A stretch of DNA of 64,000 bases from Chelatococcus albus (GTDB lineage Bacteria; Pseudomonadota; Alphaproteobacteria; Rhizobiales; Beijerinckiaceae), in NCBI RefSeq assembly GCF_030067675.1, contig NZ_JASJEV010000003.1, forward strand, positions 186,001 through 250,000, in the 5' to 3' direction. Made by a program: the position numbers and the translations under genes. Shown here in pieces: positions 3,197 through 57,195 of this stretch; positions within the stretch are counted from its first letter, which is position 1; each line of letters starts with the position of its first letter. Under the pieces are notes generated by a model, which had not been told where the DNA came from, made no database searches, and was given only the letters and a program-made list of their open reading frames with translations.

Positions 3197-3483
3197 TGCG
3201 ACCGTTCCCCGCCCCGCGGCGCTCCGAACGATGCCACTTCGTTGTTGCATTGCAACAATCTAAGCCTGCACGCCGCCGTTGGACCATGCGACTTTCGGTC
3301 AGACAGGCTGCTGCTTTCGCCGTAGACCGCCAGTTCCCCCCGGGGTTTCGCCACCCCCGTTAACCGCTTCGCAACGCGCTCGCCCTAGTGTCGACACGAC
3401 ACGGGAGCCGCCGACGCAACCTTCCTCGCGCCCTCCCGCGAGACCGCTTGCCTGCGTCTCGAGGTGATCACCGGAGCCTGACC

Positions 3484-51781: not shown

Positions 51782-52090
51782 ATGATCGTCTGCTCCTGCA
51801 ACGTCCTCTCGGACAGGCAGATCCTCTCGACTCTCGACAGCGAGGAGGCCGGCAAGCCCCGCTCACCGGCCCAGGCCTACCGCTGTCTCGGCTGCAGCCC
51901 CGACTGTGGCCGCTGCCTCGTGACCGTGCGGCGCCTCCTCGCCGACGCACGTGGCGCCGCCTGCGATCTCGGCTGCCCGATCTGCCCGAGCGCGCCAGAC
52001 GAGGTGCCTGGCGAAGCGCGCCTGGCCGCGGTAATCTCCCGATCAGAGCCGGCGAACGTGGACCTTCAGCCTCTGATGGCGGCCGAATAA
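51782..52090 (+). CDS. bfd: Bacterioferritin-associated ferredoxin
   Basis: Bfd reduces bacterioferritin iron so that it can be released. The 102-residue protein has the BFD [2Fe-2S] motif: MIVCSCNVLS at the N-terminus (Cys4, Cys6) and CLGCSPDCGRC (Cys35, 38, 42, 45). It is longer than the usual 60-75 residues and has two further cysteines in ACDLGCPICP, whose role is unknown. It is paired with bfr 200 bases downstream. Confidence 0.92.
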   Translation: MIVCSCNVLSDRQILSTLDSEEAGKPRSPAQAYRCLGCSPDCGRCLVTVRRLLADARGAACDLGCPICPSAPDEVPGEARLAAVISRSEPANVDLQPLMAAE

Positions 52091-52245
52091 CGTCGGGTCA
52101 GCCCACCTCTGGACGTCTTGCCCGCGAGCTGCGAGCCTGCAGCCAGGGGCGGAAGTTGTATCGCATGGGCCCTCTCGTGCAGCACGGCCCGGCCCACGCT
52201 GGCGTATGGCGGTAGTGGTTGCCTCTTGATCCGACCGACACTCAG

Positions 52246-52262
52246 TTTATAATTATTCTAAT
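52246..52262 (+). promoter_or_regulatory. Candidate Irr (ICE) box upstream of bfr
   Basis: TTTATAA-TTA-TTCTAAT matches the ICE pattern TTTAGAA-N3-TTCTAAA at 12 of 14 fixed positions, 32 bases upstream of the bfr start. Irr would repress iron storage under iron limitation. Confidence 0.65.
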
Positions 52263-52294
52263 TCCGCAGCCGGAATCGGACAGGAGCGATTGCC

Positions 52295-52774
52295 ATGAAG
52301 GGGGACGCGAAGGTCATCGAGTATCTTAACCGCGGCCTGCGCAGCGAGTTGACTGCCATCAACCAGTACTGGCTGCATTATCGCATGCTGGACAACTGGG
52401 GCTACAAGGACCTTGCCAAGAAGTGGCGCGAGGAGTCGATCGAGGAGATGCGCCACGCCGACCGCTTCGTGGACCGCATTCTGTTCCTCGAGGGGCATCC
52501 GAACCTCCAGGTGCTCGACCCGCTGCGCATCGGCGAGAGCGTCAAGGAAGTGATCGAATGCGACCTCGCCGCCGAGGTTGATGCGCGCGCCCTCTACCAG
52601 GAGGCGGCGACCTACTGCCATTCGGTGAAGGACTATCCGTCCCGCGACCTCTTCGAGGAGCTGATGACGGACGAGGAGGGCCACATCGACTTCCTCGAAA
52701 CCCAGCTCGATCTCATCAAGCAGCTCGGGCCGCAGCTCTACGCGCAGCACCACATCGGCAAGCTCGAAGACTGA
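52295..52774 (+). CDS. bfr: Bacterioferritin
   Basis: Bfr stores iron as a 24-mer with haem between subunits. The 159-residue protein has all ferroxidase ligands (Glu18, Glu51, His54, Glu94, Glu127, His130) and the haem ligand Met52 in [10 protein letters not shown]. Length is standard. A GGACAGGAG precedes the ATG. It lies 204 bases after bfd and has its own putative Irr box, so it may be transcribed separately. Confidence 0.97.
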
Positions 52775-52851: not shown

Positions 52852-53490
52852 CTACCAGCGCAGCACGCGGCGGCCGATGGCGGCGCCTGCGACGACGACG
52901 AGGGCGACGGCCAGCGTGTACCAGGTGGCCACGAAGAGCGGCGAGTCGTCGGTGCAGTGCGCGGCATAGAGTGTTGCCCCGATGCCGCCAGCCGCGAGCC
53001 CGGCAACCGCGCCTGCGACGCCGGGCGCAGTTGGCGCGCCGTGCCGCAGGGCGACCAGCAGCGCGGCGAGCGGCGCGAGCGAGAGCGCGGGAATGCTCAC
53101 GAGACAGACGGCCAGGTTGCGTCCGACGAGCCTTGGCCACCATTCCGCCGCCGGCAGGAGGATGAGCTCCGTGGCGACGGCCCCCGCGAGCAGGAGCGGC
53201 GCAAGCAGCAGCACCCTCCCCCGCCCGCGCAGGTCCCGCCCCGGCTGCGCAAGCCTCGGCAGCAGGGCGAGCGCCGTGACGGTGAGACCGAACGCGACGA
53301 CGAACTTGAAGAGGAAGCGCGGTGTTTCCGCAGCCGCAGCAATGTCCGGCCGCGGCCCGAGCGCCATCATGAAGAGCACCGTCGCGGTCACGACGGCGGG
53401 CACCAGGGCCACCGCGCAGACGGTGGCGACCGGAGGGGAGCGCGTCGCCTGATCCTGGACGAGGGCGTCGATCAATTGCGTCGTCTTCAT
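52852..53490 (-). CDS. nrsF: NrsF-type anti-sigma factor (DUF1109)
   Basis: This 212-residue protein has six hydrophobic helices and the NrsF/DUF1109 pattern: MKTTQLIDALVQDQAT, then ATVLFMMALGPRPDI, FKFVVAFGLTVTALAL and AHCTDDSPLFVATWY, with a Cys near the end. In Caulobacter NrsF holds SigF inactive until metal stress. Its start overlaps the sigma gene stop (ATGA), the usual coupling of sigma and anti-sigma. Confidence 0.9.
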   Translation of the reverse strand: MKTTQLIDALVQDQATRSPPVATVCAVALVPAVVTATVLFMMALGPRPDIAAAAETPRFLFKFVVAFGLTVTALALLPRLAQPGRDLRGRGRVLLLAPLLLAGAVATELILLPAAEWWPRLVGRNLAVCLVSIPALSLAPLAALLVALRHGAPTAPGVAGAVAGLAAGGIGATLYAAHCTDDSPLFVATWYTLAVALVVVAGAAIGRRVLRW

Positions 53491-54041
53491 TCCCCCACCC
53501 TCCCGAAGCGCGCCGCCAGCGCCTTGAGCCCCCGGTGCAGGGCGACGCGCACGGCGCCGTCGCTCATGCCGAGGCGCCGCGCCGTTTCCTGAATGCTCGC
53601 GCCCTCGACGGAAACCGCGCGGACCACGGCCCGCTGCCCCTCGCTCAGAACGGCCAGGAGGCGATCGATCTCGCGCCCTGACAGTTCCTCCCCCTTGGCG
53701 CCGTCCGGCAGGCTGTCGGCGACTTCCTCGATGGGAACTTCAACACCCTGCTTGCGGCGGCGCAGGTTGTCGATGAGCTTGTTGCGAGCGATGGCGGCGA
53801 CCCAGGGCCCGATCGGGGCGGAGGGATCCCATGTGTGCCGCTTGATGTGGATCGCCAGAAGCGCCTCCTGCACGACATCCTCCACCTCGCCTGCCGAGGT
53901 CATCCCGACACGTGCGAACCCGCGGCGGACGATGCTGCGCAGAACCGGCGCGAGCCCCTGCAGCAATCGGCGATAGGCGGCCGGATCGCCCACGTTCGCC
54001 GCGCGCATCAGCGCCGCCCATTCGTCCTCGCGGTCTTGCAC
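53487..54041 (-). CDS. ECF sigma factor (SigF-like)
   Basis: This 184-residue ECF sigma factor has region 2 (EVEDVVQEALLAIHIKRHTW with the promoter-melting segment) and region 4 (VEGASIQETARRLGMSDGAV-type helix-turn-helix). A GTG at 54041 after GAGGGATC is the likely start; the open frame upstream begins with TTG. It is divergent from the bufferin operon and cotranscribed with nrsF. It probably drives both promoters (see the matched promoter motifs). Confidence 0.9.
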   Translation of the reverse strand: MQDREDEWAALMRAANVGDPAAYRRLLQGLAPVLRSIVRRGFARVGMTSAGEVEDVVQEALLAIHIKRHTWDPSAPIGPWVAAIARNKLIDNLRRRKQGVEVPIEEVADSLPDGAKGEELSGREIDRLLAVLSEGQRAVVRAVSVEGASIQETARRLGMSDGAVRVALHRGLKALAARFGRVGE

Positions 54042-54059
54042 GATCCCTCTGTATCCTTG

Positions 54060-54085
54060 TTCGGCACGCCGCAGCTTGCTGTTAC
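54060..54085 (-). promoter_or_regulatory. SigF-type promoter of the sigma/anti-sigma operon
   Basis: On the minus strand GTAACA-N16-CGAA (54080-54085 and 54060-54063) lies just upstream of the GTG start. The same pattern precedes bufA1 on the opposite strand, and it agrees with the GTAACC-N16-CGAA motif described for Caulobacter SigF (recollection). Confidence 0.65.
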
Positions 54086-54152
54086 GCCGATGTGAGATCA
54101 ATCACACAGCCGTGAGACGCAAAACCCGCCCGGACACAGCTGCGTGAGCGGC

Positions 54153-54178
54153 GTAACGGCGCGTCCCCTCCCCGCGAA
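54153..54178 (+). promoter_or_regulatory. SigF-type promoter of the bufferin operon
   Basis: GTAACG (54153-54158), 16 bases, then CGAA (54175-54178) lies about 48 bases before the bufA1 start. Spacing and sequence match those of the divergent sigma-gene promoter exactly, implying one sigma factor for both. Confidence 0.7.
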
Positions 54179-54226: not shown

Positions 54227-54559
54227 ATGAATCGCCGCTCAGTCACCATTGCCCTCGCCGGCTCCATCGCAACCGCACTCGCCATGATCGGCGCACCGGC
54301 GCGGGCGCAGGATGCCGCGATGGAGAAAATGATGAGGGACACCGGAGAGGCCATAAAGGCCGGCAAGGTTGAGAAGTGTTACGGCATCGCCCTCAAGGGG
54401 CAGAACGACTGCAAGGCGGGAGCCGGGACCACCTGCGCTGCGACCAGCAAGGTCGACTACCAGGGCGACGCCTTCAAGATCGTGCCCAGGGGAACCTGCG
54501 TGACCGTCCAGACGCCGCACGGCCCCGGATCGCTCGAGCCGATCAAGCGGCCCTCGTGA
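54227..54559 (+). CDS. Bufferin precursor 1 (DUF2282, BufA-like)
   Basis: This 110-residue product has a signal peptide ([20 protein letters not shown], cleavage near ARAQ) and a mature domain with four cysteines (51, 62, 70, 91) in [18 protein letters not shown] and GTC. DUF2282/BufA proteins are RiPP-type metallophores whose cysteines are converted to thiooxazoles by the MNIO enzyme and partner encoded downstream, and which bind copper. A GGGAGACAGG precedes the ATG. A second precursor follows directly. Confidence 0.9.
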
Positions 54560-54609: not shown

Positions 54610-54903
54610 ATGATCAAGTCTGCCACCGCCCTCGCGCTGGCCAGCGCCGTCACCGCCATGCTCGCCGCCGCTGCGTCCAGCTCCGGCGCCGCCGAAGGGA
54701 AGGAGAAGTGCTATGGCGTCGCCCTCAAGGGGCAGAACGATTGCGCAGCCGGGCCCGGCACGACATGCGCCGGGACGGCGAGGATCGACTACCAGGGCAA
54801 CGCCTGGAAGTACGTCGCCAAGGGCACGTGCGTGACGATGGAGCTGCCGGGCGGCCGCAAGGGCGCGCTCGAGGCACTGAAGCGCGACCTGCCCAAGGTC
54901 TGA
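54610..54903 (+). CDS. Bufferin precursor 2 (DUF2282, BufA-like)
   Basis: This 97-residue product is a paralogue of the gene before it, with a signal peptide ([20 protein letters not shown]) and cysteines at 34, 45, 53 and 74. The spacing 11-8-21 is identical to that of precursor 1, and EKCYG(I/V)ALKGQNDC and VDYQG/IDYQG are shared. It lies 50 bases after precursor 1 and 69 before the modifying enzyme, with a hairpin in the latter gap. Confidence 0.88.
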
Positions 54904-54972: not shown

Positions 54973-55881
54973 ATGCTGCCGACCTCGATTGCCGCGGCCA
55001 TTCCCGCCCGCGCCGGCGTGGGGCTGAAGCCCGAGCACTATCGTGCCATCCTCGAGAGCGCGCCGGATGTCGCTTTCTTCGAGATCCATGCCGAGAACTA
55101 CATGGGCGCAGGCGGGCCGCCGCACCGCTATCTCGAAGCGATCCGCGCCCGCTATCCGATCTCGCTGCACGGGGTTGGCCTGTCGATCGGCGCCGACCGC
55201 GCCCTTGATCGCGAGCACCTGGCGCGGCTGCGCGGCCTCGTCGAGCGCTACGAGCCCGGCCTGTTCTCCGAGCACCTCGCCTGGTCGACGCACGACACGG
55301 GATTCCTCAACGACCTTCTGCCCGTGCCCTACACGAGGGCGACGCTCGAACGCGTCTGCGACCACGTGGACGAGGCGCAGGAGGCCGTCGGGCGGCGCAT
55401 GCTGCTCGAGAATCCGTCGACCTATCTGGTCTTCGCCGAAAGCACGATCCCCGAGGTCGATTTCCTCGCCGAGGTCGCCGCCCGCACCGGTTGCGGCCTG
55501 CTCCTCGACGTCAACAACGTCGAGGTCTCGGCGACCAACCATGGCTACGACCCGACGGCCTATCTCGATGCCTTTCCCGCCGAGCATGTCGGCGAGATCC
55601 ACCTCGGGGGCTTTGCCGCGACCACCGACGACAGGGGCGCGCGCCTGCTCATCGACGCGCATGGCTCGCCGGTCGACGACAGGGTCTGGGCGCTCTATCG
55701 CCATGCCCTCGGCCTCTGCGGCGCCGTGCCCACCTTGATCGAATGGGACAACGATGTGCCCGCCTGGCCGATCCTCCACGCCGAGGCACGCCGGGCGGAC
55801 GCATTGCTCGCGCGGGTGGCGGCGCGGCCGCACGGCGAGCGTCGGGCAGCGGAGGATCTCCATGGCACCCACGCTCTCTGA
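54973..55881 (+). CDS. MNIO-family (DUF692) bufferin-modifying enzyme, BufB-like
   Basis: MNIO enzymes are multinuclear non-haem iron oxygenases that modify cysteines of precursor peptides. The 302-residue protein has the metal-binding pattern: [63 protein letters not shown] and IEWDND. GAAGGAGATGCCGCC precedes the ATG. It overlaps bufC by 20 bases. Confidence 0.92.
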
Positions 55882-56665
55882 GATCCAGGCGGCCTTCGCC
55901 GCAGCCCTCGTCGATCCCGCATTGCCGGTGCCGGACGGGCTCTGTGGCCCCGGCGGCGGGCCGGCCGCGCGCCGCTTCGCCGTCTATCGCAACAATGTCG
56001 TGGTCGGGCTGACGGAGGCACTGCGCGCGCGCTTTCCCGTGACCGACCGTCTCGTCGGGCCGGAGTTCTTCGGCGCAATGGCGCGAGCCTATGTCGCGGC
56101 TCACAAGCCGGCGTCGCCGCTGCTCATGCACTACGGCGACGACCTTCCCGACTTCATCGCCGCCTTCGAGCCGGCGGCCATCATCGTCTATCTCGCCGAT
56201 GTCGCACGGCTCGAAGCGGCCTGGTCGCAGGCCTACCATGCGGCCGAGGCGGTCCCGATCGGAATCGCGGCGCTCGCGGCGATCCCCACGGACGAACTCG
56301 CATCCGTTCACCTGACACTCCACCCTTCGCTGCGCCTCTTGCATTCCGCGCATCCCGTGGCCTCAATCTGGGCCGCCCACCAGACGGATGGGCCGGTCAT
56401 GCCGCCCGAACCGTGGGAGCCGGAGGACGTCCTCGTGGTGCGGCCGGAGGCGGAGGTGCTGGTCCATCGCCTGCCCGCGGGCGGTCTCGCCTTCCTCGCG
56501 GCGCTCGAGGCCGGCGCGCCCCTTGGTGTCGCGGTCGAAAGGGCGACTGCCGCCGCACCGGCCTTCGACCTCCCCCGCAATCTCGCCGGCGCCTTCGAAG
56601 CCGGCGCAGTGATCGCCGCCAGCATCAGCGCTGCTGTGCAAGCCCTTGCGGAGACATGTCCATGA
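55862..56665 (+). CDS. DUF2063 partner protein, BufC-like
   Basis: This 267-residue protein has the DUF2063 N-terminal domain ([51 protein letters not shown]), which is thought to recruit the precursor to the MNIO enzyme. The start overlaps bufB and its stop overlaps the DoxX start (ATGA), so the block is translationally coupled. Confidence 0.9.
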
Positions 56666-57195
56666 CAGATGCCATTGATCAGGCGACGCACCGTTCGGCC
56701 GCCGACGCGGTGGCTCGGTTCATCGCCCGTGCCGACGTGCTTCTCGGGCGTTTCCCGGCGGCGCTCGTGCAGCTCGTCCTGCGTTTCACCGTCGCCCTTC
56801 CCTTCTGGCGATCCGGCCTGACCAAGTGGGACGGCTTCCTTGAGCTGTCGGACGGCGCCGTCTTCCTCTTCCAGGAGGAGTTCCGGCTGCACATCCTCGG
56901 CAGCACCTACCCCTTCCCCTTCCCGACCGCGGTCGCCTTCGTCGCAGGTTGCGTGGAGATCGTGCTCCCCATCCTGCTCGTCCTCGGCCTCGGGACACGC
57001 TTCGCCGCCCTCGGCCTCCTGGTGATGACCGGCGTGATCCAGCTCACCGTGCCTGACGGATGGGCGACCTATCACCTCCCCTGGGCGGCGATGCTGCTGG
57101 CACTTGTCGCCTATGGCGCGGGGAAGGTCTCGCTCGACCATTGGATCGGCGCCCGGCGCATGAAGGCGGCGGCCGACCGCAGCGGACCGGCCTGA
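56662..57195 (+). CDS. DoxX-family membrane protein
   Basis: This 177-residue protein has four transmembrane helices and the DoxX pattern (RFTVALPFWRSGLTKWDGFL, AGCVEIVLPILLVLGLG, ALGLLVMTGVIQL). DoxX proteins end bufferin/gig-type clusters; its role is unknown. Overlap with bufC makes it the last gene of the operon. An ATG at 56656 is also in frame. Confidence 0.9.
   Translation: MTDAIDQATHRSAADAVARFIARADVLLGRFPAALVQLVLRFTVALPFWRSGLTKWDGFLELSDGAVFLFQEEFRLHILGSTYPFPFPTAVAFVAGCVEIVLPILLVLGLGTRFAALGLLVMTGVIQLTVPDGWATYHLPWAAMLLALVAYGAGKVSLDHWIGARRMKAAADRSGPA

Follow-up and report, generated by a model that had tools for sequence, protein, structure and literature searches.

In the window (the whole stretch of Chelatococcus albus DNA that was analysed, 64,000 nucleotides), the gene for an ECF sigma factor and the adjoining gene for its predicted anti-sigma factor are oriented divergently from a bufferin operon. 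The region between the two operons holds a pair of SigF/ECF16-type promoter sequences and, between these, two palindromes. The features are as follows:

52852..53490, minus strand: NrsF-family (DUF1109) anti-sigma factor with Cys129 and Cys179 (Pfam NrsF, 197.8 bits)
53487..54041, minus strand: ECF sigma factor of the SigF/ECF16 type, GTG start (Pfam Sigma70_r2/r4_2; NCBIfam PRK12512, 253.8 bits, cut-off 198)
54085-54060, minus strand: predicted SigF/ECF16-type promoter of the sigma-nrsF operon, −35 GTAACA (54085-54080), N16, −10 CGAA (54063-54060); GTAACAGCAAGCTGCGGCGTGCCGAA
54102..54115: palindrome TCACACAGCCGTGA (WCAC-N6-GTGW), predicted operator, 16 bp upstream of the sigma-side −35
54134..54147: palindrome ACACAGCTGCGTGA (WCAC-N6-GTGW), predicted operator, 5 bp upstream of the bufA-side −35
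54153-54178, plus strand: predicted SigF/ECF16-type promoter of the bufferin operon, −35 GTAACG (54153-54158), N16, −10 CGAA (54175-54178); GTAACGGCGCGTCCCCTCCCCGCGAA
54227..54559, plus strand: first bufferin precursor, DUF2282, bufA-like, ATG at 54227 (Pfam, 82.4 bits, cut-off 22.4)
54610..54903, plus strand: second bufferin precursor, DUF2282 (Pfam, 85 bits)
54973..55881, plus strand: bufB, MNIO bufferin maturase (NCBIfam MNIO_BufB, 388.5 bits, cut-off 310)
55862..56665, plus strand: bufC, DUF2063 partner protein (Pfam DUF2063, 99 bits)
56662..57195, plus strand: DoxX family protein (Pfam DoxX, 58.8 bits)

The sigma factor has sigma70 regions 2 and 4 only and falls in the SigF-like subfamily by Pfam and the PRK12512 equivalog. 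Its gene most likely starts with the GTG at 54041-54039, because the longer ORF, which begins with TTG, would cross the promoter. The adjacent position of nrsF is that of an ECF16 system, and the two NrsF cysteines are retained in relatives (Cys129 in 145/146, Cys179 in 146/146). The NCBIfam equivalog AntiSigF_NrsF reaches 98.5 bits against a cut-off of 300, and by that model the anti-sigma factor is therefore not the Caulobacter equivalog. On the other side, DUF2282 precursors are combined with an MNIO maturase, which places the operon among Buf1 clusters; the two DUF2282 genes are the only ones in the whole genome. The NCBIfam models BufA2, HvfC, and HvfX, which describe Buf2/Hvf-type relatives, stay below their cut-offs on this operon (26.1/60, 46.7/142, and 67/80). 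Buf1 clusters share with the window DUF2282 precursors, MNIO, DUF2063, DoxX, and the sigma and NrsF genes; the bufferin survey that describes them contains no mention of promoters (PMC12452194). Adjoining nrsF in convergent orientation, 51782-52774 encodes a BFD-like ferredoxin (24.9 bits, Pfam cut-off 26) and a ferritin-like protein. A bacterioferritin-associated ferredoxin is included in the copper table for Caulobacter, as excerpted (PMC8224329), and an iron–copper link of these neighbors is possible.

The first-pass annotation had described matched promoters, GTAACA-N16-CGAA on the minus strand and GTAACG-N16-CGAA on the plus strand, with equal spacing, and both lie exactly where it had placed them. 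The shorthand that it gave for the motif, GTAAC-N16-CGAA, names the right sites, but its spacing is loose by one base: the invariant core is GTAAC-N17-CGAA, which is the same as GTAACR-N16-CGAA. This pattern occurs twice in the window, both times between the sigma gene and bufA, against a chance expectation of 0.01, and none of 100 shuffled windows contained two matches. Both −35 elements read CGTAAC on their respective strands, and the form (T/C)GTAAC-N17-CGAA accordingly stands before the sigma factor's own operon. The flank common to both promoters extends the match to GGCGTAAC-N17-CGAA, which is found in the 4.0-Mb genome at these two promoters only (15 sites have one mismatch). The back-to-back −35 elements are 67 bp apart, and the corresponding distance in relatives is mostly 54-68 bp.

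A genome-wide search with the motif, proposed earlier as a way to define the regulon, singled out this pair in the extended form but yielded no further target from exact core sites. Exact GTAAC-N17-CGAA occurs at six sites in the genome. Three of the four sites elsewhere are inside long ORFs; the fourth is overlapped by weakly codon-biased ORFs, 290-292 aa in length, and an EamA-like ORF begins 253 bases downstream of it. A wider regulon reached through these sites was considered, and since all of them are embedded in or overlapped by ORFs, no second target is claimed. The comparison of motif frequency with background likewise gave a divided answer: the bare pattern GTAAC-N15..17-CGAA is not enriched (12 matches genome-wide vs 39 for the reversed pattern), whereas the pairing, position, and conservation of the motif are non-random.

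Judged by its sequence, the window motif is the published ECF16/SigF promoter, known for Caulobacter SigF, Sinorhizobium RpoE7, Brucella BcrS, and Bradyrhizobium EcfF. According to excerpts of the respective papers, on which the cited statements about these systems are based, the consensus is GTAACC-N16-CGAA for Caulobacter SigF (PMC3511200) and, for SigF/ECF16, tGTAACc-N16-CGAA (PMC3420878) or (T/C)GTAAC-N17-CGAA (PMC8315932). The nearest match to the locus as a whole is RpoE7-EcfR7/SMb20530-20527 (ECF16) of Sinorhizobium meliloti, in which sigma/anti-sigma genes and a bufferin-type operon are divergent and each preceded by GTAAC-N17-CGAA; these promoters have been mapped, and RpoE7 activates the divergent DUF692/DUF2063 operon as well as the promoter of its own gene. 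Unlike the locus in the window, that of S. meliloti is on a megaplasmid and has one precursor ORF listed (PMC6180224). SigF-NrsF of Caulobacter crescentus with CC3254-3257 is similar in gene content, in having promoters at both units, and in two functional NrsF cysteines. It differs in position 6 of the −35 element (C, against A/G in the window) and in a SigF regulon that includes a second bufferin operon and MsrP, whereas the window genome has no further DUF2282 gene (PMC3511200). BcrS-AbcS/bcrXQP of Brucella, which is arranged divergently as in the window (PMC8315932), and EcfF-OsrA of Bradyrhizobium (PMC3420878) share with it the ECF16 sigma factor, the NrsF-type anti-sigma factor, the promoter consensus, and autoregulation (PMC8315932, PMC3420878); the cysteines reported for OsrA even bear the numbers 129 and 179 of the window NrsF (PMC3420878). 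Their targets are a methionine-rich peptide and Msr/redox genes that respond to HOCl or H2O2, in contrast to the bufferins of the window (PMC8315932, PMC3420878).

For the analysis of conservation, 158 NrsF loci of the family and order to which the window belongs were taken; weak, partial, and unlisted NrsF places were left out. Six loci were dropped (two without a sigma match, two with empty upstream strings at contig ends, and two with too short an upstream region), which left 152: 62 with a divergent bufferin operon, including the window's own copy, and 90 without bufferins. In the bufferin loci, GTAAC-Nk-CGAA was found on the sigma side at k=17 in 34 and at k=16 in 6, and on the bufferin-operon side in 39 and 5, respectively, whereas each of the thirteen remaining values of k between 10 and 24, and the reversed core, occurred in 0-1 loci. 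The loci without bufferins gave 50 (k=17) and 11 (k=16) on the sigma side and 20 and 3 on the target side. When the window is excluded, both promoters are present in 29 of the 61 bufferin loci, the target promoter only in 14, the sigma promoter only in 10, and neither in 8; an exact match on either side is also missing in 27 of the 90 others. A second set of 80 loci from named genomes, reduced to 76 by removal of four duplicates of the first set, comprised 36 bufferin loci (sigma side 9 at k=17 and 1 at k=16; target side 12 and 1) and 40 others (sigma side 3 and 13; target side 0). The same spacings stand out there, with exact matches scarcer than in the first set. The genomes compared belong to one order and are related, so that all these counts are inflated and not independent. 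The published consensus, the conserved promoters, and the experiments in relatives together support the earlier prediction that the sigma factor would control its own operon, with the anti-sigma gene, as well as the bufferin operon.

The palindromes between the promoters were absent from the first-pass annotation. In shuffles of the 67-bp gap, at least two palindromes arose in 2/20000 and one in 185/20000. When WCAC-Nk-GTGW was scanned at k=0-12 in the NrsF loci, k=6 was found in 29/62 bufferin loci and 25/90 others, and the remaining twelve values of k in 0-3; the second set gave 9/36 and 15/40 (24/76 overall) at k=6 and 0-1 at other k. About half of the bufferin loci have no match. The palindromes keep to positions upstream of the promoters: 42 of 80 target-side promoters have one at 3-18 bp and 4/80 at 19-34 bp, and on the sigma side the figures are 22/127 and 10/127. 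Within these ranges the distances are quantised, at 4-5, 11-12, and 15-16 bp on the target side and 15-18 bp on the sigma side (with one at 4). The placement in the window, 16 bp from the sigma-side −35 and 5 bp from the bufA-side −35, thus recurs in relatives, at 15-18 and 4-5 bp.

The combination was also sought as a genome-wide pattern (palindrome, 3-18 bp, GTAAC-N17-CGAA) in 397 genomes of the order, with the reversed pattern as control. There are 100 places with the combination, in 75 genomes and 31 of 142 genera, and 4 with the reversed pattern; the window genome has exactly two such places, both at this locus. The gap between palindrome and promoter is 4 (31 places), 5 (22), 6 (11), 10 (8), 11 (9), 12 (12), 14 (2), 15 (4), or 16 bp (1), and never 3, 7-9, 13, 17, or 18 bp. 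Two positions left free in the pattern are themselves symmetric (G in 71/100 and C in 71/100), giving the consensus TCACG-N4-CGTGA, from which the window palindromes differ at one and two positions. By a simple scan for peptide signatures, and not by a family search, the genes 3′ of the 100 places are bufA (26), DUF1223-like (15), CcdA/DsbD-like (11), cytochrome b561-like (7), Met-rich peptides (4), sigF (3), MsrP-like (2), thioredoxin-like (2), and none of these (30). In two genomes, a second bufferin operon that is separate from the sigma gene (G369:C33:25468; G416:C25:135595) likewise has the palindrome before a SigF-type promoter. At the S. meliloti RpoE7 locus (M270 pSymB, around 3316-3329 of the locus), the palindrome TCACGAAAGCGTGT lies 11 bp upstream of the target −35, compared with 5 bp on the bufA side of the window. 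Genomes from other orders seldom have the combination (8 places in 7/285 genomes vs 1 for the reversed pattern; the 285 leave out the window's genome and three genomes of the same family).

The palindrome is not confined to SigF-type promoters. The consensus of EcfG-type promoters is GGAAC-N16/17-CGTT, and beside these the palindrome occurs at 43 places in 36/337 genomes against 5 for the reversed pattern, a weaker enrichment than at SigF-type promoters. The idea of a SigF-specific co-operator is weakened by this control, and of that idea the operator is kept and its exclusivity dropped. The EcfG-type promoter palindromes of two genomes (G154, G240) are nearly identical. Perfect 8+8 palindromes, TGATCACG-N4-CGTGATCA, are present in 6/397 genomes at genes without an ECF promoter, labeled by eye from translations as DoxX-like, rpoH-like, sod-like, and FutA-like; none of these genes is a regulator gene. 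This wider occurrence suggests that the binder is probably a broader regulator and not specific to SigF. BufC/DUF2063 was considered as the binder as well; it is an unlikely one, given that some copies of the palindrome stand at sites where bufferin genes were not detected.

Several other accounts of these elements were weighed. If the likeness of the two GTAAC/CGAA pairs were due to chance and transcription started elsewhere, the lack of over-representation of the bare pattern would be expected; however, the pair is unique in the window and, in its extended form, in the genome, its spacing is conserved in relatives, and it matches a published consensus, which makes chance scarcely credible. 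The palindromes could be accidents of composition or lineage that serve no regulator. About half of the bufferin loci do without one, kinship inflates the counts, and a single palindrome in the gap did arise in some of the shuffles (185/20000); yet enrichment at spacing 6 alone, quantised distances, the 100 places against 4 reversed, and the presence at several classes of target gene, among them bufferin operons that are separate from the sigma gene, make an accident improbable. To the eye, a CRP/FNR site is a striking element between the promoters: TGTGAGATCAATCACA at 54091-54106 is a perfect TGTGA-N6-TCACA, through which an activator of that type might act. This 16-mer was found in the window alone among 58 NrsF loci tested, and the CRP-like GTGA-N6-TCAC in just 1/62 bufferin loci and 1/90 others. 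It overlaps the first palindrome, TCAC-N6-GTGA, which has the arms in the opposite order and is the conserved element. Since the 16-mer is not conserved, it is regarded as incidental to the first palindrome, and a role for a CRP/FNR-type activator is highly improbable.

The locus is thus very probably a divergent ECF16 promoter pair at which the sigma factor reads both sides and the palindromes serve as operators of a second factor. In this scheme, the membrane protein NrsF would hold the sigma factor until metal or oxidant stress in the envelope, perceived via the two conserved NrsF cysteines, frees it. The freed sigma factor would read GTAACR-N16-CGAA leftward into its own operon, a positive feedback in which its inhibitor is made as well, and rightward into the genes for two bufferin precursors, bufB, bufC, and DoxX, leading to copper-binding peptides. 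Transcription is predicted to start near 54054 (minus strand) and 54184 (plus strand), because the Bradyrhizobium ecfF start has been mapped 6 bp below the −10 element. The bufA-side palindrome would then lie at about −43, an activator-like position. A second transcription factor, whichever its sign, would tune both promoters by binding to WCAC-N6-GTGW, as the palindrome, a strongly supported element at the level of sequence, is most likely its operator.

Whether the two promoters obey the sigma factor equally is less clear-cut. Control could be asymmetric as in Caulobacter, with a bufferin promoter that depends fully on the sigma factor and a sigma-nrsF operon whose main driver is a different factor and whose autoregulation is mild. 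The Caulobacter sigF promoter retains SigF-independent activity, responds weakly to excess SigF, and shows no strong autoregulation in the presence of Cr or Cd, according to the excerpted data (PMC3511200), and the sigma-side promoter in the window has a palindrome of its own 16 bp away. On the other hand, S. meliloti rpoE7, Brucella bcrS, and Bradyrhizobium ecfF are reported as autoregulated in the excerpts (PMC6180224, PMC8315932, PMC3420878), and Caulobacter sigF itself rises by 2.2-4.7 log2 under Cu (PMC8224329, as excerpted). Asymmetric control is accordingly possible, although on the unlikely side, and symmetric reading of both promoters by the sigma factor is preferred.

Beyond this locus, TCACG-N4-CGTGA is likely to be a conserved operator of Hyphomicrobiales ECF16/SigF promoters, phased at 4-6, 10-12, and 14-16 bp from the −35 element, with one palindrome per promoter in the window. 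A candidate factor that also serves some of the EcfG promoters and other stress genes would co-regulate an envelope metal/redox regulon (bufferins, Met-rich peptides, DUF1223, CcdA/DsbD-like, and MsrP/cytochrome b), and sigma release alone would not set the output. The role of the palindrome beside SigF promoters is proposed here from sequence. The usual view of ECF promoters is that release of the sigma factor is all that switches them.

The promoter pair is a further example of a known sigma/bufferin wiring; it adds one more genome to that circuit and offers precise sites for mutation. The conserved palindrome is the new part and matters more. No description of it was found in the open literature: a text search of PMC3511200, PMC8315932, and PMC6180224 returned no mention of a palindrome or inverted repeat, PMC3420878 contains one inverted repeat, at ecfQ and not at ecfF, and the matches listed in a literature search for the palindrome strings were all unrelated. 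It places a candidate operator beside ECF promoters in dozens of genera, and one of the loci concerned, that of S. meliloti RpoE7, has already been studied. RpoE7 reporter fusions gave no response to H2O2, CdCl2, or chromate in the published excerpts (PMC6180224), and a second input would be a testable reason for such results. The palindrome may also bear on the second regulator of Caulobacter sigF. Its sequence in the form TGATCACGAAATCGTGATCA could serve as a probe for the candidate binder.

Within the genus, the NrsF locus was found in 2 of the 4 Chelatococcus genomes sampled, and the sigma proteins of the two genomes that carry it are 53% identical. On these two grounds, the locus looks patchy or exchanged in Chelatococcus. 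The promoter strings at the NrsF locus of a genome of the same genus (G090) are identical to those on plasmid pCO-6 of Chelatococcus sp. CO-6. In Chelatococcus sp. CO-6, the NrsF locus lies on the plasmid, beside a TetR gene.
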